Origin: a virus
DNA: 35,604 bases
Virus record (IMG/VR): IMGVR_UViG_3300028840_001695
Span: 1-35,604 of that record
Strand: one strand, 5' to 3'
Shown piece by piece: positions 3,472 to 35,604 of this stretch. The translations under genes were made by a program, and so were the position numbers. The notes below the pieces were generated by a model. It did not search any database, had not been told where the DNA came from, and saw only the letters and a list, made by a program, of their open reading frames with translations. How positions within the stretch are numbered: the first letter of the stretch is position 1; each line of letters begins with the position of its first letter.

Positions 3472-3752
3472 GAGCTCGCCCGGGTTCTCAGGGACCATTC
3501 GAGCAGCGTCGCCAGCTCGCGCACGACGTCGGTGAGCCCCTCGATCGTCGTCGCGATCTCGTCTTCGCCGATGCCGAGCACGCTGTGCACGGCGAGCTGA
3601 TCGGCCCGCTGGCGAGCTCGCTCGGCGTTCCTGAGCACGAGCTCGAGCGGCGTCGCCTTCGGCGCGGGCTCGCTCTCGGTCTCGGGGGCCGGCTCTTCGA
3701 CGAGAGCCTCGCGAATCTCTCTCATTCCGGTCGGTCCGTTCGCCTCACTCAT
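3468..3752 (-). CDS. Hypothetical 94-residue protein
   Basis: The start ATG 3750-3752 overlaps the initiator stop by eight bases, and the stop overlaps the next start as ATGA, so it sits in a coupled chain. The protein begins MSEANGPTGMREIREALVEE, has a Glu/Pro-rich stretch at about 20-35, then a helical region with a conserved-looking C-terminus (IATTIEGLTDVVRELATLLE). No family is recognised. A longer frame reaches back to 3806, but the extra 18 residues overlap the initiator gene and look non-coding. Confidence 0.65.
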   Translation of the reverse strand: MSEANGPTGMREIREALVEEPAPETESEPAPKATPLELVLRNAERARQRADQLAVHSVLGIGEDEIATTIEGLTDVVRELATLLEWSLRTRASS

Positions 3753-4332
3753 GATCGGCCCCTTCCGAGCCAAGCGCTTCGAGCATCCGGCGCGCGTAGC
3801 CGGCACCGTTGCCGCCTCCGGCTGCCATCTTCTCGAGCGTGCTGATCCATTCCGCGTCTTGAGCCGCGAGCCGTTTCAACCGCTCGCGGGGGATAAGGGG
3901 GTCTCTTCTCTTCTCTTCTTGTGGAGTTTCGCCGCCGTAACCCCTTGTCTTTCCACGACCGGAGGAACCCGACGACGACCCGACGGCAACCCGAGCAGAA
4001 CCCGAGCCCGACCCGAGCGCAACCCGAGACGGCTTCCGCTGGCTCTCGTCGAAGTTGGTGAGAACCAGAGTTTCGCCGTCGCGATGCATGAACCCGACCG
4101 AGACGAGCTTCTCGATCCATGCCCGAACGTCGCGGAGCTGCCGCGCGTTCACTTCCTCGCGGAGCTCGCTGTCTGTGATCGGCCGGCCCGAGCGGATCTC
4201 GAGCCGGCCTTCGGGTGAGCAGAACAGCATGCACTGCAGGTAGAACCCGCGGGGGGCAGCCTTGAGCCGCCCCCACTTCGGCGAGGCCCTCACCTTGTCC
4301 TGCCAGAGCTTGAACCACTGTTTCCGCGCCAT
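3745..4332 (-). CDS. Replication initiator / replisome organizer-like protein
   Basis: This 195-residue protein begins MARKQWFKLWQDKVRASPKW. Residues 1-95 resemble the N-terminal winged-helix domain of phage replisome organizers (DnaD/gp38-like): a WFKL start, LREEVNARQLRDVRAWIEKL, and then FMHRDGETLVLTNFDESQRK. Residues about 101-125 are a Gly/Ser linker encoded by an 11-bp DNA repeat array (3967-4032). The C-terminal part is basic and helical and may recruit host helicase factors, though this is inference. I chose ATG 4330-4332 because GGGGGGCCGAG precedes it. The open frame extends to 4386, but that part overlaps the ATPase gene. No helicase or polymerase was found, so replication probably relies on host enzymes. 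The layout recalls lambda O, whose gene contains its own origin. Confidence 0.65.
   Translation of the reverse strand: MARKQWFKLWQDKVRASPKWGRLKAAPRGFYLQCMLFCSPEGRLEIRSGRPITDSELREEVNARQLRDVRAWIEKLVSVGFMHRDGETLVLTNFDESQRKPSRVALGSGSGSARVAVGSSSGSSGRGKTRGYGGETPQEEKRRDPLIPRERLKRLAAQDAEWISTLEKMAAGGGNGAGYARRMLEALGSEGADHE
3902..3920. other. Pyrimidine/purine-asymmetric tract, possible unwinding element
   Basis: The plus strand here is a run of T and C only, built of TCTCT/TTCTC units, and is far richer in A+T than its surroundings. It lies 46 bases from the iteron-like array in the same gene. In iteron origins an easily melted tract normally sits beside the initiator sites. That role here is inferred. 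Confidence 0.4.
3967..4032. repeat. ori: Six 11-bp iterons, candidate replication origin inside the initiator gene
   Basis: ACCCGA occurs at 3967, 3978, 3989, 4000, 4011 and 4022, six times at exact 11-bp spacing. The last four copies read ACCCGAG. The unit is not divisible by three, so successive copies are read in different codon phases and the periodicity cannot come from a protein repeat. The array encodes the flexible linker after the putative DNA-binding domain. An 11-bp direct repeat GAGTTTCGCCG flanks it at 3924-3934 and 4068-4078, and a pyrimidine tract lies at 3902-3920. Iterons in an initiator gene are known from lambda O. Origin function is inferred. Confidence 0.6.
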
Positions 4333-4354: not shown

Positions 4355-6181
4355 CTAGAGCGGAACGATTGAACCCTCAAGAACATGCCAGCGACGGAAC
4401 CAGCTCGGCGCGCCGTCCGGAGTAGCCTCCGGCGCGTCGTCGGCAGCCGTCGCGAAGATCACGTCGAACCGATCGCGGATCAGCGCGAGAGCGACCGCGA
4501 GAGCCTCTCTCGTCGTCATGTCGAGATCCGCGTGAAGGTCGAGCAGCAGGATCCGGATCCCCGCGATCTCGCAGAGTGCCGCGCGAAGACAGAGATCGAC
4601 GAGCGCGCTCTTCGCGTCGCCGGCGCGCTGCCACGGTCGGCCCCCTGAGCCGATCTCGAAGTCGGAAGCGAGCTCGATCGGATCGACGAGCTCACGGCCC
4701 GTCGCGGGGTCGATCAGAGCCTTCCGCACGTTCTCGATCGCCGCCCTCACGGCAGCGAGCGGATCGTTCGCGCGGTCTTCCTCGATCGCTTTCAGCGTGT
4801 CCTCGATGCCGGCCCACTTGTCGACCGTCTCTTGCAGCTTGCCGGCCGAGAGCCGCCATTCCGCCGCTTTCTTCGCCTGCCCCGCGTAGTGAATCACGCG
4901 ATCGCGCACGGCCTCGAGCTGAGCGATCTCGGCCTTCGCCGTCTCGACGCGCTCGGCTGCCCCCTCGAGCGAAGCCTCGCCGCCCCCGGCGATCACGCCC
5001 CGAAGACTCTCGACGCGAGCCGTGATCCCGCGATAGGCCGTGAGAGCCTCGCCGGCCTCCGTCGCGATCTTCTTCGTCCGGGCTTCGTCGCGCCGGCGAG
5101 CCGCGACCGTCTCGGTCGCAACCCGAAGCCGCTCGTCGAGATTCACGAGCTCGTCTTTCATCCCCCCGACGACCTCGCGGAGCTGCTCGAGATCCGGAAC
5201 CGTGAATTCCCGTCGGCACGTCGGGCAGCCGCACGCGCCCGGCGTGAGCTCGTGCTCGATCGCGCCGGCGAGCTGGCGGATCGTCGAATCCTGCCGCGCG
5301 CGTTCCGAGCTGATCTCGCCGCGCATCTTCTCGGCGTGCTTCCGGTTCTCGGTCGCGGTCTCGGCATCGGCCCTCGCCCGCTCGACGGCAGCCTCGAGCG
5401 CTTCCGCGTCGAGCCCCTCGAGCTCGGCTTCGTAGGCCGCGATCCGGTCGCGAACCTCGCCGTCGCGACGATCGCCCTCGAGCGCGTTCTCGTCGGCCTT
5501 GATCTCGGCGCGCTTGCGCTCGATCAGGTTCCCGAGCTCGGCCGGATCCAGCTCGGCGAGGAAGCCGAGCGGCGTCTCTTCGTTCGTGGGGTCGGTCACG
5601 GCCGAGTCGCTCTGATCCCGCTGAACGGCCCGACGCTGCTCTTCACAGTATGCGATTGCGCTCTTCACGCCGCGATCGAGAACGCGCTTCACGACGGCCG
5701 TATCGACGACACCCTTCGCCTGCAGCTCGGCTGCCGTGATCGGCTTCCCCTGAGCAGCGGCGAAGAGCTTCGCGCGCTTCGCCGGCGTGAGGCCGAGGAT
5801 CCCCCCGGGCTCGAGCGCGGCGACGATCGCTTCGACGCCGGTCGCCCCCGGGAAGAGCTTCAAGAGCTCGGCCTTGCTGAGCTTCTTTCCGCCCGGCGAC
5901 CACCGAATCGGGTTCTTCACGCCCTCGAGAAAGAGCGAAACGGCCGGCCCCTTGCCGTCGAAGCCGGGCCGGTCGCACCGGAGATCACGGAGATTGCTCT
6001 TCAAGAGCCCCTCGACATGCCCCCCGAGCGCGAGCCGGATCGACTCGATCGTCGTGCTCTTCCCGGCACCGTTCGCGCCGAGAAGGAAGTGAACGGCTGC
6101 CCCGTCGTCGAAGAGCGGCAGCTCGAGATCGACGTGCTCGAGGTTCTGAATCCCCTCGATCCGCAGTCGGCGAAGCCTCAC
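4355..6181 (-). CDS. Rad50/SMC-like ATPase with zinc hook
   Basis: This 608-residue ABC-type DNA-repair ATPase begins at GTG 6179-6181, overlapping the upstream stop as GTGA. The N-terminus MRLRRLRIEGIQNLEHVDLE leads to Walker A GANGAGKS (about residues 35-42). Long coiled coils flank a central ACGCPTCRREF (Cys 317, 319, 322), which matches a Rad50 zinc hook. A degenerate signature (GSGGRPWQRAGDAKSALVDL) precedes Walker B ILLLD at about 544-548. It is short for Rad50/SbcC, as in phage versions. No Mre11/SbcD-type nuclease gene was recognised nearby. The neighbours are a RecT-like annealing protein and the initiator, so a role in end processing or recombination-dependent replication is likely. 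A 79-bp piece covering Walker B (4512-4590) recurs inverted at 35382-35460. Confidence 0.85.
   Translation of the reverse strand: MRLRRLRIEGIQNLEHVDLELPLFDDGAAVHFLLGANGAGKSTTIESIRLALGGHVEGLLKSNLRDLRCDRPGFDGKGPAVSLFLEGVKNPIRWSPGGKKLSKAELLKLFPGATGVEAIVAALEPGGILGLTPAKRAKLFAAAQGKPITAAELQAKGVVDTAVVKRVLDRGVKSAIAYCEEQRRAVQRDQSDSAVTDPTNEETPLGFLAELDPAELGNLIERKRAEIKADENALEGDRRDGEVRDRIAAYEAELEGLDAEALEAAVERARADAETATENRKHAEKMRGEISSERARQDSTIRQLAGAIEHELTPGACGCPTCRREFTVPDLEQLREVVGGMKDELVNLDERLRVATETVAARRRDEARTKKIATEAGEALTAYRGITARVESLRGVIAGGGEASLEGAAERVETAKAEIAQLEAVRDRVIHYAGQAKKAAEWRLSAGKLQETVDKWAGIEDTLKAIEEDRANDPLAAVRAAIENVRKALIDPATGRELVDPIELASDFEIGSGGRPWQRAGDAKSALVDLCLRAALCEIAGIRILLLDLHADLDMTTREALAVALALIRDRFDVIFATAADDAPEATPDGAPSWFRRWHVLEGSIVPL
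4512..4590 (+). repeat. Source copy of the 79-bp segment inverted at the contig junction
   Basis: The reverse complement of these 79 bases is present without mismatch at 35382-35460. Here it is an uninterrupted part of the zinc-hook ATPase gene around Walker B, so this is the native copy. Confidence 0.9.
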
Positions 6182-7641
6182 TTCGCACCCCCCGTCAAGC
6201 CGCGAAGGTTCTCGAGCTGCTTCCGCGTCTTCTCGTCGACGCCGGCGAGAGCCCCCGGGAGGATCCCCCGGGCCGTGCCGCTGCCGCTCTTCGTCGTTTC
6301 GGCCGAGGAATCCGGCCCGCTGCTCGCCCCCTGCTCGTTCGGCGCGGGGTCCGGCGTCTGAGTCGTCTCGTCGGTCGCCTCGCCCTGAGCGGCTTCCTGA
6401 GCCCTTTTCTCGCGGGCGAGCCTGAGCTGATTCTCGGCGACGCAGACGGGATCAAGGCAACCCCCGTCGGCGCTCATGCGCCCCTCGCATCTCGGGCAGG
6501 TATTCGACTTCTCGGGAACCGGAGCTTTCTCGGGCTCCGGCTGGCCGTCGAAGAGGCCTTCGGAGCACTCGGGGCACGCGCCCCCCACGACGCCGATCGC
6601 CGGCTTCCCGCACGCGAGACACTTCTGAACGCCGGCCCCGAGAGCCTCGAGAACCTCGCCCGTGCTCGGGTCGACGCTCTGGCCGGTCTCGGGGTCGAAG
6701 GGAATGCCGTTCTCGTCGAGCGGGTAGCCTTGCGACGTCTGAGGCTCGCGAGCCGCGCGCCGGGCTTCCTTCTGGCGTTCGGCCTCGCGCCGGGCCTCGA
6801 GCTCGTGCCGGAGCCTCTCGGCTTCCTCGGCCTTCGCGCGCTCTTCCGCCTCGACCTTCGCCGCTGCCGCTGCCTTGAGCTCTTCCTCGCTCGGGCCGGT
6901 CTCGAGGAAGTCGTCGATCGTGCTCTCGCCGGCCTTGATCGCGTTGAAGACGCCGCGGAGCCGGCCGATATCGCCCTTCGTCCAATTCGCGCACGGCTTC
7001 CCGACGACGGTCTCGAGCTGCTCGCGCTCGACGCCGAAGTGATCGAACGCGCCGAGCAGCTTTCCGAGCCCGTCGCCGACGAGCCTCACGGCGATCTCGC
7101 GCGCCTTCGCGAAGAACCGATTCCGAACCGGGAACGGGATCCCGCCGAGAATGGCGTTCCGGCACGCCTTCGCGAGACCGCTCTGAATCGCGGTCTGCAG
7201 CTTGTCGGCCCGGAGCCGGTACGGGTTGCCCTGCCGGGGGTGGAACATCTTGGACACGACCCATTGAGCCGTGCTGCCGACGTTCGTCTGATAGTCGAGA
7301 AAGCGCCCCTCGCAGACGACCTTTTCGTCATCCTCGCTCACGACGTAGGCCGTGAAGTGACAATTCCCCCAGACGAGCGCGAGCGTCTTCGCGGCGTGAA
7401 CGCTGAGCCCCTCGACGTAAACCGTGACGGTCTCGCCGTTCTGCTTCGACTTGTACGGGATCGAGTAGAAGGCGTTTTGAGCTTCCTCCGGATCCATCTC
7501 GAGAAGAGCGAGCGCGTTCCGGCTCGCGGCTTCCATGTCGCGCGGTCGCTGGATCGCGACCGCGCTCTGTCGTTCCTGATCCATCCTGATCACGGTCGCA
7601 CCGTCGCGCACGACCGGAAGCAGCGCGTTTCCGTCGTTCAT
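6178..7641 (-). CDS. RecT-like single-strand annealing protein with two zinc ribbons
   Basis: This is a 487-residue protein. Residues about 40-245 resemble a phage family considered RecT-like: VYVEGLSVHAAKTLALVWGN, then LQTAIQSGLAKACRNAILGG and IPFPVRNRFF, then EREQLETVVGKPCANWTKGD with the LRGVFNAIKAGESTIDDFLE end. Residues 250-300 are a charged helix. Two Cys clusters follow: CLACGKP...ACPEC (341, 344, 356, 359) and CPRCEGR...CLDPVC (382, 385, 395, 400). The low-complexity Ser/Thr/Glu C-terminus may bind partners. It would anneal complementary strands during recombination-dependent replication together with the downstream zinc-hook ATPase. The RecT-like call is from remembered family patterns, so the exact superfamily is uncertain. 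Confidence 0.6.
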   Translation of the reverse strand: MNDGNALLPVVRDGATVIRMDQERQSAVAIQRPRDMEAASRNALALLEMDPEEAQNAFYSIPYKSKQNGETVTVYVEGLSVHAAKTLALVWGNCHFTAYVVSEDDEKVVCEGRFLDYQTNVGSTAQWVVSKMFHPRQGNPYRLRADKLQTAIQSGLAKACRNAILGGIPFPVRNRFFAKAREIAVRLVGDGLGKLLGAFDHFGVEREQLETVVGKPCANWTKGDIGRLRGVFNAIKAGESTIDDFLETGPSEEELKAAAAAKVEAEERAKAEEAERLRHELEARREAERQKEARRAAREPQTSQGYPLDENGIPFDPETGQSVDPSTGEVLEALGAGVQKCLACGKPAIGVVGGACPECSEGLFDGQPEPEKAPVPEKSNTCPRCEGRMSADGGCLDPVCVAENQLRLAREKRAQEAAQGEATDETTQTPDPAPNEQGASSGPDSSAETTKSGSGTARGILPGALAGVDEKTRKQLENLRGLTGGAK

Positions 7642-8701: not shown

Positions 8702-8928
8702 GGCACGACCCCCGTCGCCTTCATGATCTCGGCGATCTTCCGGCCGATCGGCGTCTCGGGCGGAAGCCGGCCCCCGGCATTCGCCGGCTTCGCGCGCTTG
8801 ACGATTGCGGGGATCGGCCGGCCCATGAGCCGCGCGATTCGCTTCGCCGCGATCACGTCGGGGTCGGGAACGATCGCCGCCTTCGTCTTCTTATTGCGAG
8901 CTCGCTTCTCTCGCTTTCGTCTCTTCAT
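8698..8928 (-). CDS. Small highly basic protein
   Basis: I chose ATG 8926-8928 because it overlaps the nuclease stop as ATGA. The frame continues upstream only as antisense-like sequence inside the nuclease gene. The 76 residues start MKRRKREKRARNKKTKAAIV and are Lys/Arg-rich throughout, suggesting nucleic-acid binding. The C-terminus (PPETPIGRKIAEIMKATGVV) is helical. No family is recognised. Confidence 0.6.
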   Translation of the reverse strand: MKRRKREKRARNKKTKAAIVPDPDVIAAKRIARLMGRPIPAIVKRAKPANAGGRLPPETPIGRKIAEIMKATGVVP

Positions 8929-9680
8929 GATCCGAGCTCCGAAATCTGCCGGCTGAGCCGGCTCTTGAAACTCTCGACGCTCTCTTTGATCCGAGCGACG
9001 GCGTTCACGTCGTCGACGACCTGGATCGCGTCGCGAAGAGCCTCGAGCTTGCCTTTCCATCCGAGCAGCGGAACCCCGAGCTCTTTCTCGAGTCGCTCGA
9101 CCTTCTCAGCAACCCGAAGACGCTCGCGGAGCTCCGCGTATGCTCGGTCCTTGCCAGACTTGAGCCCGCGATCATACCCCCGGGCTTCGGCTCGCGTGCG
9201 CGCGAGCTTCTCTTCGTCCGAGTCGAGCGAGCGCTTCGCGTTCCTGAGAACAGAAGCAACGAAGGCGCGGTCGAGAGCCTCCGGCTCGAGGGAAGGCGCG
9301 GCCTTGCGCTGAACAAGCCCTTTGCCCCGCGTCTCGAGCAACCCCCACGGCTTCGGCAGCTCGTCGAGCTGAACGACCTTCGGGGGCGCGACGATCCAGA
9401 AGTGATCACAGAACTGCACGATCCCTTCCGCCTTGCGCGGCTTCGCGAGCTCGCGTCGCCAGTCGCCCCGGCTCACCTTGATCTCGAAGCCGTGAACGGC
9501 GAGGCCTCGAGACGGATAGCAGCAGATCGAGATCGCGTCGGCCGTGACATCGCCGGCCCATCCCGTGCCGTTGCGAACCTGCCGAAGCGTCGCGTATTCC
9601 GGATCCTTGAAGCGAGCGCAGATCCGCGCGAAGAGATCGGCTTCGGTGAGCTTCACCGCTGGCGGATCTGCCGCTTCCAT
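8925..9680 (-). CDS. MmcB-like PD-(D/E)XK nuclease
   Basis: This is a 251-residue protein. The N-terminal 100 residues fit MmcB-related restriction-endonuclease-fold proteins: GDVTADAISICCYPSRGLAV, then FEIKVSRGDWRRELAKPRKA, then FCDHFWIVAPP. The putative catalytic set is Asp48, Glu66 and Lys68 in the E-x-K strand. From about residue 130 it becomes a charged coiled coil, an addition not expected in the minimal family, which may carry an oligomerisation or partner-binding role. I used ATG 9678-9680, preceded by GGGGGCTCAGG; a TTG at 9693-9695 would add five residues. The 5' end overlaps the 49-residue zinc-finger gene by 28 bases. It may process DNA for repair or recombination, or degrade host DNA. 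Confidence 0.7.
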   Translation of the reverse strand: MEAADPPAVKLTEADLFARICARFKDPEYATLRQVRNGTGWAGDVTADAISICCYPSRGLAVHGFEIKVSRGDWRRELAKPRKAEGIVQFCDHFWIVAPPKVVQLDELPKPWGLLETRGKGLVQRKAAPSLEPEALDRAFVASVLRNAKRSLDSDEEKLARTRAEARGYDRGLKSGKDRAYAELRERLRVAEKVERLEKELGVPLLGWKGKLEALRDAIQVVDDVNAVARIKESVESFKSRLSRQISELGS

Positions 9681-9802
9681 CCTGAGCCCCCGCAAGCCGG
9701 GCAGCCTACGATCCGGACATGCCCCCCCTTGCTGAAATGCTGCCGGACGGTTCCGCGCCCCCGGCAGCGCGAGCAGCGCTCACGCCGATCGTCGGTCTTC
9801 AT
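9653..9802 (-). CDS. 49-residue DnaJ-like zinc-finger protein
   Basis: This short frame starts at ATG 9800-9802, overlapping the upstream stop as ATGA, and ends at TGA 9653-9655 inside the nuclease gene. The protein begins MKTDDRRERCSRCRGRGTV and contains two CxxCxGxG repeats, CSRCRGRG (10-17) and CPACGGSG (34-41), the signature of one DnaJ-type zinc site. It is too short for a chaperone and resembles the tiny zinc fingers common in phage early regions. The regular cysteine pattern and coupled start support a real gene. Confidence 0.75.
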   Translation of the reverse strand: MKTDDRRERCSRCRGRGTVRQHFSKGGHVRIVGCPACGGSGWKRQIRQR

Positions 9803-11555: not shown

Positions 11556-12425
11556 CTAGTTCAGCGAGGGATCGAGGATCAGCCCCCGCACGCTCTCGAC
11601 GGCTTCCATCTCGCGCGCCAGCGAGAAGCCCTTCGAGACCTCCGTGAAAGCGTTGTAAGCGCTCCAGCCGTTGCGCTCGACAAACTCGGGGTGAGCCGGG
11701 TTCCGGAACGCCTCATCGACCTTGCCGAGCTTCGACCACGGGAAGAGCTCGCGCCGGCCGGCCTCACAGAGAACCTTTTCCCATCGGCGGGAACCGGCCT
11801 CGCCGTCGAAGCCGACGGCCCGGAGCGCTTCGTAGGTCTTCGGGGCTTCCTGAATCCGGTCGCTCCAAGCCGCGAGGCCGACGTCGAGCGCTTCGTCGAG
11901 ATCGAGGCCCGTCGTATGCTTCCGGGCGATCGCGATCCGGCCTTCGTCGATGATCCAGCCGTTCGCGCAAACGAGAATCCGGAGCATCACGACGACCTGC
12001 AGCGAGAGGCTCGAATCGTTCGAATGGACGAGCCCGATTCCCGGCTCGCCGCCCCCGACGATCGTCGGGAGAAAGTCGGTCATGGTGCCGTCGCCGGCGT
12101 GAATCCGCTTCGCCGCCTCGAAGGCCTCGCGAGCCTTCGGGCTCAGCGGCATCGTCGGCGAGCTGAGCCGGTTCGGCGTCTTCAAGCGCACGTCGCCGAA
12201 GAGCCGCGCACCGTTGCCGCCAACCTGCCAGCTCTCGCGCTTGATCTCGAGCCCGCGCCGGTCGATCGCCTCGACGAAGCGGTCGGCGAGCTCGCCGTGC
12301 TGGATCCCTTCCCATCGCGTGCGCTCGCCGCGATCCGTGACGGGAACGAGCCGGAGCTCTTCGCGGTCGAACCCGAAGAGCCCTTTCTTGCTGAGTCGGT
12401 CGGGAATGCTGAGCCTCTGAGCCAT
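11556..12425 (-). CDS. DUF932 family phage protein
   Basis: This 289-residue protein fits the DUF932 phage/plasmid-like family. Typical features are GIGLVHSNDSSLSLQVVVML, then RILVCANGWII, IAIARKHTTGLDLDEALDVG, and a C-terminal WSAYNAFTEVSKGFSLAREM. DUF932 proteins are common in phages and plasmids and have no settled biochemical role. I chose ATG 12423-12425, which has AAAGGA twelve bases upstream. The frame stays open to 12611 but there runs antisense-like through the zinc-ribbon gene. It is the most recognisable gene of this operon. Confidence 0.75.
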   Translation of the reverse strand: MAQRLSIPDRLSKKGLFGFDREELRLVPVTDRGERTRWEGIQHGELADRFVEAIDRRGLEIKRESWQVGGNGARLFGDVRLKTPNRLSSPTMPLSPKAREAFEAAKRIHAGDGTMTDFLPTIVGGGEPGIGLVHSNDSSLSLQVVVMLRILVCANGWIIDEGRIAIARKHTTGLDLDEALDVGLAAWSDRIQEAPKTYEALRAVGFDGEAGSRRWEKVLCEAGRRELFPWSKLGKVDEAFRNPAHPEFVERNGWSAYNAFTEVSKGFSLAREMEAVESVRGLILDPSLN

Positions 12426-12427
12426 GA

Positions 12428-12631
12428 TCACGAGTCCTTTCCGGTGCACACTTCGTAGCCGTCGACCGTGCGGAGCGCGAGCCGATCGCGATCCGCGTGA
12501 ACGTTGCTCGCCGGATGCCCGCTCGGCCGCTTGCAGCGCGACCCGACCGGGGCCCGGCACGTCGGACACGCGACCTCGAGAGCCGGGTCGCGCGCCCAAG
12601 TCTTCCCGCATGAGCTGCAGCTAAAGGTCAC
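12428..12631 (-). CDS. 67-residue double zinc-knuckle protein
   Basis: The start is GTG 12629-12631, two bases after the upstream TAG, and the TGA is two bases before the DUF932 ATG. The protein reads MTFSCSSCGKTW, then CPTCRAPVGSRCKRPSGHPA and HADRDRLALR. CxxC pairs at 5-8 and 22-25 could bind zinc, and the Cx2C...GxxCxxPSGxxxxxxHxxR pattern is common in small phage zinc proteins. Function unknown, probably nucleic-acid binding. The tight spacing implies translational coupling. Confidence 0.7.
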   Translation of the reverse strand: MTFSCSSCGKTWARDPALEVACPTCRAPVGSRCKRPSGHPASNVHADRDRLALRTVDGYEVCTGKDS

Positions 12632-34629: not shown

Positions 34630-34898
34630 GCCGGCCCCCGATACCAGAACCGGCGCGGAACCCGCTGCCGCTGGATCGAGCGAAGCGCGGCGACTTGACG
34701 CTTCGTGAAGTCGCTCGCCTGATCGAACCTCCGGACGTGCGCGAGGAACGAGCTTTCCCATTCGTTCAGACCCTCGCCCTTCTCGTCGATCACGAGCACG
34801 AGAGCCCCGCCTTCGGTCGGCCCCATCGGGCGATAGAGCCCGCGTCGCACGCGCTTACAGCGGCAGCCCTCGGGGCAGCTCGGGCCGTGCGAGCTCAT
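34626..34898 (-). CDS. Hypothetical 90-residue protein with N-terminal Cys cluster
   Basis: The protein starts MSSHGPSCPEGCRCKRVRRG, with three Cys within seven residues and then RGLYRPMGPTEGGALVLVID. The rest is helical (EWESSFLAHVRRFDQASDFT; KRQVAALRSIQRQRV). It overlaps the methyltransferase stop as ATGA. The Cys-basic opening resembles small nucleic-acid-binding phage proteins, but no family is recognised. Confidence 0.6.
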   Translation of the reverse strand: MSSHGPSCPEGCRCKRVRRGLYRPMGPTEGGALVLVIDEKGEGLNEWESSFLAHVRRFDQASDFTKRQVAALRSIQRQRVPRRFWYRGPA

Positions 34899-35440
34899 GG
34901 CCGGCCCCGATAGAGAACGACCCCGAGCCCCGCAAGCGGCGAGAGATCAAGGTTCAGCCCGACGAGAATAGAGCCGTGCGAAGCCGCCTCAGATCGGCCA
35001 TTCTCTCTCGGGATCCCGAAGCGTAGCCGAGCGCGAATAAAGAGTGTCGATACACCGGCCTCGATCGCGCGCTGAGTCGCCCGGGTTTCGGTATGGCAGG
35101 GGATCAAGAGCGCGATCTTCCGCGAGCTCTCTTCGATGCAGCGGTCTATCCAGCGAGCCCGAGCTTCGCCATAGGGTGGATTGACAAAGACGGTTCTAGC
35201 CGCCCCCCACGGTTCAGAGCATCCGTCGGCGGGAAGCGAGAAGAACGCTCGCGCCCCCGTCGGATTATCAGGCTCGGTGCAGGGGTCGAGATCGAACCCC
35301 CCGAGCAGCTCACGAAGCGGCTCGAGAAGATAAGCCGGCGTCAATCGCCGCTGCCGGTCGTGATCCTCAGAGCGTCGCCGCGTCTTCGCGCGGCACTCTG
35401 CGAGATCGCGGGGATCCGGATCCTGCTGCTCGACCTTCAC
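34895..35440 (-). CDS. Phage adenine-N6 DNA methyltransferase, 5' end disrupted
   Basis: The native part (to about 35381) has RRLTPAYLLEPLRELLGGFD, then LDPCTEPDNP, and the catalytic motif IV FVNPPYGEARARWIDRCIEE. Further on are KIALLIPCHTETRATQRAIE and STLFIRARLRFGIPREN, as in the phage Dam-type family (pfam05869-like). It transfers a methyl group from S-adenosylmethionine to adenine. The open frame begins at GTG 35438-35440, but its first 19 codons are the 79-bp inverted ATPase fragment, so the genuine start has been lost at the contig junction. It would protect phage DNA from restriction or mark it for packaging; the target sequence is unknown. Confidence 0.75.
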   Translation of the reverse strand: MKVEQQDPDPRDLAECRAKTRRRSEDHDRQRRLTPAYLLEPLRELLGGFDLDPCTEPDNPTGARAFFSLPADGCSEPWGAARTVFVNPPYGEARARWIDRCIEESSRKIALLIPCHTETRATQRAIEAGVSTLFIRARLRFGIPRENGRSEAASHGSILVGLNLDLSPLAGLGVVLYRGRP

Positions 35441-35460: not shown

Positions 35461-35604
35461 CTCGAGAGCGAGCTCGAGCTCTTCGACGCGCGCCTTGAGC
35501 TCGTCGCGCTCGCGGATCACGCGGGCGAGCGTATCCGCGTAGGATTCCGGCCCGGCGTCGAAGGACTTCACGGCGTCGAGCTGCTCGGCGAGAGCGTGCC
35601 GGAG
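35461..35604. repeat. Terminal direct repeat, right copy
   Basis: This is an identical copy of bases 1-144. It belongs to the coiled-coil gene that begins at 723 and supports joining the window ends into one circle. Confidence 0.95.

Follow-up and report, generated by a model that had tools for sequence, protein, structure and literature searches.

A probable replication origin with an 11 bp iteron array inside a candidate winged-helix initiator gene of a GC-rich phage

The region at approximately positions 3865–4030 of the window, which is the whole 35,604 bp viral record analyzed here, is likely a replication origin located inside the gene of the phage's own origin-binding protein and bound through its repeat array, as in SPP1 oriL. 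We place the probability of this reading at roughly 0.78. The element is built around six ACCCGA hexamers on the plus strand (3967–4027), which begin at positions 3967, 3978, 3989, 4000, 4011, and 4022. The first-pass annotation had reported this exact 11 bp spacing, and all six copies were found where it placed them. The hexamers are invariant, and the five spacer bases are unlike in every copy. In a scan of the window for any hexamer at spacings of 7–30 bp, the longest constant-spacing run is this six-copy array, and the runner-up, with four copies, is the same array read in a shifted frame. Runs in 40 dinucleotide shuffles of the window did not exceed three, and the array is the sole one of its kind in the genome. 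Since an exact 144 bp direct repeat occupies both ends of the record (1–144 and 35461–35604), the record probably represents a complete genome, with 35,460 unique bp.

The array lies approximately 300 bp inside the coding region of the candidate initiator gene (4332–3745, minus strand). Its constant-spacing direct repeats, six at 11 bp, immediately follow a probable winged-helix (wHTH) domain and occupy the linker, starting 12 nt past the glutamine that probably ends the domain. Since the gene is on the minus strand, the coding strand of the array reads TCGGGT-N5 and encodes the linker SRVALGSGSGSARVAVGSSSGSS. With the protein fixed and codons drawn at the genome's own usage, the probability of obtaining the six hexamers is 10^-7.9, and a run longer than four was never reached in 200,000 synonymous resamplings. 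The repeats are thus retained at the DNA level beyond the needs of the peptide. Selection on the DNA rather than on the peptide is the simplest reading of the array, and the earlier proposal that the codons do not impose it is borne out by these tests.

We considered whether the array is instead a coding tandem repeat, in which a low-complexity Gly/Ser linker has grown by repeat slippage and the DNA has no function of its own. The linker is indeed of low complexity, and part of the 11 bp signal in the gp38-like genes described below survives synonymous shuffling. Moreover, an exact scan of IMG/VR for four TCGGGT-N5 units recovered 18 contigs, and control scans for TCGGGT arrays recovered 27 at 10 bp spacing and 108 at 12 bp spacing, so the contig count alone is uninformative. 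Chromosomes carry ACCCGA-N5 arrays as well, at 119 loci or more, and none of the 119 overlaps a gp38-type wHTH ORF. Slippage is, however, difficult to reconcile with perfect hexamers separated by unlike spacers, with an 11 bp step that passes through all three reading frames, and with the codon test. The composition of the viral arrays points in the same direction, in that all three spacers are unlike in 7 of the 18 with an 11 bp step, compared with 0 of the 27 at 10 bp and 9 of the 108 at 12 bp. We regard an origin of the array in the peptide as highly improbable.

Four of the 18 arrays at 11 bp (L022, L024, L027, and L030) are situated in the linker of proteins assigned to "DnaD-like helicase loader" or "replication initiation" families. 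A primase/helicase gene comes next in L022 and L024, and the L030 protein is a relative of SPP1 gp38. Among the control arrays, none of the 27 at 10 bp spacing lies in such an initiator gene, and no more than one of the 108 at 12 bp does, a borderline case (E = 0.0016). A difference that weighs against the origin reading is that the ACCCGA strand is coding in these four phages and non-coding in the window. The hexamer was also observed in other settings. Five TCGGGT units at 11 bp spacing lie outside long ORFs in a group of related phage contigs (L021, L033, L025, L028, and L031), in which TTGACGGGG follows shortly after the array. In the chromosomes of Bacteroidales, Prevotella, and Clostridia, ACCCGA-N5 arrays are found near the 3' ends of ORFs (L044, L049, L050, L065, L087, L089, L103, L110, L112, L119, L123, L128, L139, L141, L144, and L148). 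These arrays often read ACCCGACAAGT and encode PTSTRQVPDKYPTSTRQV immediately ahead of a conserved LSVKEMM..LKDRENF-like stretch. Flavobacteriaceae chromosomes carry arrays of 4–13 copies outside long ORFs (L048, L055, L063, L066, L068, and L072, among others).

The candidate initiator comprises 195 amino acids from the ATG at 4332, or 213 from the ATG at 4386. It consists of a probable winged-helix domain (residues 1–98), the repeat-coded linker, and a C-terminal helical bundle (residues ~149–188). A single-sequence AlphaFold model predicts the bundle with confidence (pLDDT 80–89). Modeled with an alignment of presumed relatives, the N-terminus folds, with moderate confidence (pLDDT 62), into a wHTH topology, and the top-ranked PDB fold matches of this model are mainly wHTH regulators, with a best E value of 0.05. 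These matches to transcription regulators, together with a wHTH protein adjoining a DNA-level array, would also suit an operator, at which the protein, by binding within its own gene, would repress its operon or set the timing of its transcription, with no origin involved. The array, however, is located not at a promoter but ~300 bp into the coding region, it lies beside a low-GC tract, and the layout coincides with that of the proven SPP1 origin. A role as an operator is accordingly considered very unlikely.

Sequence searches did not place the protein in a known family. It has no significant match to Pfam, PHROG, or PDB sequences, the comparison with phrog_5810 ("replication initiation protein") being non-significant at E = 0.17–0.37. 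No homologues were detected in viral contigs, and INPHARED contained no near relatives at the DNA or protein level, with matches only at E ≥ 2. A lone homologue was found in 1 of 284 genomes searched in the phylum of L045, at a locus titled Myxococcales; it aligns with residues 1–79 (31% identity, E = 6e-7). The homologue stops where the wHTH region ends, lacking both the linker and the array, and is neighbored by Gam-like, ParB-like, and Holliday-junction-resolvase genes. Searches of genomes in the phyla of L039, L042, and L077 with the window domain, or with its two-row alignment, returned nothing at E ≤ 0.001, and the terminase relatives L004–L017 carry no comparable array. Membership in the SPP1 gp38/DnaD-like family was not supported, as a profile of 93 members aligned in the wrong register with E = 8. 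The window protein ranked best of 383 ORFs in this profile search, yet only at that E value, and pairwise profile alignments to the family do no more than hint at the right register (P = 0.01–0.02). The layout and the moderate-confidence wHTH fold therefore fit the first-pass proposal that the gene encodes a DNA-binding initiator, but homology lends it no support. Among the phrog_5810 matches themselves, in-gene repeats were noted at 11 bp in L471 (near 1972) and L488 (near 1687), at 21 bp in L484 (near 1738), and at 10 bp in L489 (near 1807), and in the phylum of L077, mixed repeat spacings were seen at phrog_5810 loci.

The sequence beside the array contains possible further features of an origin. 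Just two RY tracts in the 35.6 kb reach 14 nt, and the longer is the previously noted pyrimidine tract TCTCTTCTCTTCTCTTCTT (3902–3920, plus strand, 19 nt). It lies within a candidate unwinding region (3893–3952), predicted from a GC content of 50% against a mean of 66.5%, which ranks among the 0.2–0.3% least GC-rich 60 bp windows. Just beyond the pyrimidine tract is a hairpin-like inverted repeat (3864–3889) with 12 nt arms that are 92% complementary and a 2 nt loop. The 11 bp direct repeat proposed to flank the array does exist (3924–3934 and 4068–4078, with a wider match of 13/14 nt), but it is ordinary for this genome because the window contains 61 pairs of exact 11-mers less than 200 bp apart. 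The expected turn of the cumulative GC skew at the array proved uninformative; the detrended maximum falls at 3706, and the excursion is the same as in block shuffles (P = 0.46).

Among the closest known counterparts of this arrangement is gene 38/oriL of phage SPP1. An 11 bp array starts at position 35939 of a 44,010 bp contig whose surrounding sequence is identical to the SPP1 record, and it falls inside the 350 bp oriL fragment that has been used experimentally (35801–36151; PMC5615212). The gp38 protein binds the oriL direct repeats within gene 38 with nanomolar affinity (PMC6316719). As in the window, the SPP1 direct repeats lie within the gene directly after the wHTH domain and advance in 11 bp steps; the AT-richer tract that follows them has a putative counterpart in the candidate unwinding region of the window. 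SPP1 differs in its repeat motif, in having a second origin (oriR), and in encoding its own loader gp39 and helicase gp40, and no sequence homology was detected between gp38 and the window protein. In Salmonella phage L, gene 18 contains six imprecise 11 bp repeats with the repeat TGTCCAACGGA, proposed to be the likely origin, and its product is described as a distant homologue of lambda O (PMC8022706). The likeness to the window resides in the published layout of six 11 bp in-gene repeats. The first-pass annotation had cited lambda O as the precedent. The parallel is valid in that lambda O/ori-lambda and P22 gene 18 also carry iterons inside the initiator coding region, but lambda and P22 have four iterons of ~20 bp (PMC8022706), which makes SPP1 gene 38 and gene 18 of phage L the nearer parallels. 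The window, with six iterons at 11 bp, does not fit the lambda O type. The window element looks, and probably works, like the in-gene iteron origins of SPP1 and phage L.

The generality of the layout was assessed in the SPP1 gp38/DnaD-like initiators, for which 12 annotated relatives and 160 IMG/VR loci were reduced to a non-redundant set of 93. Over the 190 bp that follow the wHTH domain, the best repeat lag is 11 bp in 55 of these genes and 22 bp in another 12, a total of 67. The opening 190 bp of each gene served as the control region, in which the corresponding counts are 6 and 4, or 10 of 93. The outcome was stable whether 22, 33, or 44 nt were compared. When synonymous codons were shuffled, the 11 bp count fell from 55 to ~30 (width 33), so the signal is carried in part by the peptide and in part is additional at the DNA level. 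The motifs vary among members, including GAAACGCAAAC, AACCAACAA, GGGCAAACAAA, AGCGGGACAGC, and ACCCGA, and the linkers vary as well. In the 65 genes with an 11 bp array, the array begins at a median of 16 nt from the domain-ending glutamine (interquartile range 11–24), and the next 60 nt are 72% AT. These statistics describe the gp38-like family, to which sequence comparison does not assign the window protein. The earlier expectation that the 11 bp period is kept while the linker varies is favored in the gp38-like family and applies to the window's own family only by analogy, because no close relative with the linker was found. A statement of such an 11 bp rule was not found for this family in the open-access literature, a body that leaves out most subscription papers. 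The codon test, the 67 of 93 initiators with the same periodicity, and the location of the SPP1 array in oriL together sustain the original interpretation that the gene of a DNA-binding initiator carries an iteron origin in its linker segment.

The identified genes of the genome (terminase, portal, head, and tail) are all on the minus strand. The predicted large (731–2284) and small (2281–2856) terminase genes lie on one side of the candidate initiator gene, and an SbcC-like ATPase (4355–6181), the phrog_3657 protein (6178–7641), which has no homologues in viral contigs, and a DNA-repair-like protein (8925–9695) lie on the other. A DUF932 protein (11556–12611) and a Dam-type DNA adenine methyltransferase (34895–35440) are encoded farther away, both on the minus strand. 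The start of the small terminase gene is only ~1.1 kb from the array, and pac sites are sometimes located within or close to terminase genes and may include repeats. The array could on this basis be a packaging site bound by the small terminase, but it is situated in the linker of another gene, where gp38-like initiators carry 11 bp arrays, and we consider such a function highly unlikely. No helicase, loader, primase, or polymerase was recognized among the ORFs scanned, which did not include every small ORF, and no helicase loader, helicase, or primase gene adjoins the candidate initiator, whose neighbors are the SbcC-like ATPase and small ORFs.

For the probable replication origin, the following mode of action is proposed. 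The N-terminal winged-helix domain of the 3745–4332 product would bind the six ACCCGA sites. Since these are one helical turn (11 bp) apart, the sites would be located on one face of the DNA, allowing a stacked nucleoprotein array to form. This array may stress the less GC-rich tract at 3893–3952 until it melts. The C-terminal helices might then recruit the host helicase, either directly or via a host loader; recruitment from the host is proposed because no phage helicase, loader, or primase was recognized.

The in-gene iteron arrangement is already known from a few model phages. Our findings raise the possibility, which we rate slightly below even odds, that phage wHTH initiators in general carry an array with a one-turn spacing of 11 bp in their own linker, with the motif and the linker peptide free to change. 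This rule would extend to unclassified initiators such as that of the GC-rich phage studied here, whose ACCCGA copies are on the non-coding strand, through either undetectably deep descent or convergence. If this is true, the linker peptide would be largely a by-product of the origin DNA. An 11 bp lag directly after a wHTH domain would then locate origins and name initiators in uncultivated phages, and this signature would reach proteins without recognizable homologues. It would also make testable why the one-turn spacing stays while the motif and linker change, and whether the recognition helix of each domain co-varies with its own iterons.
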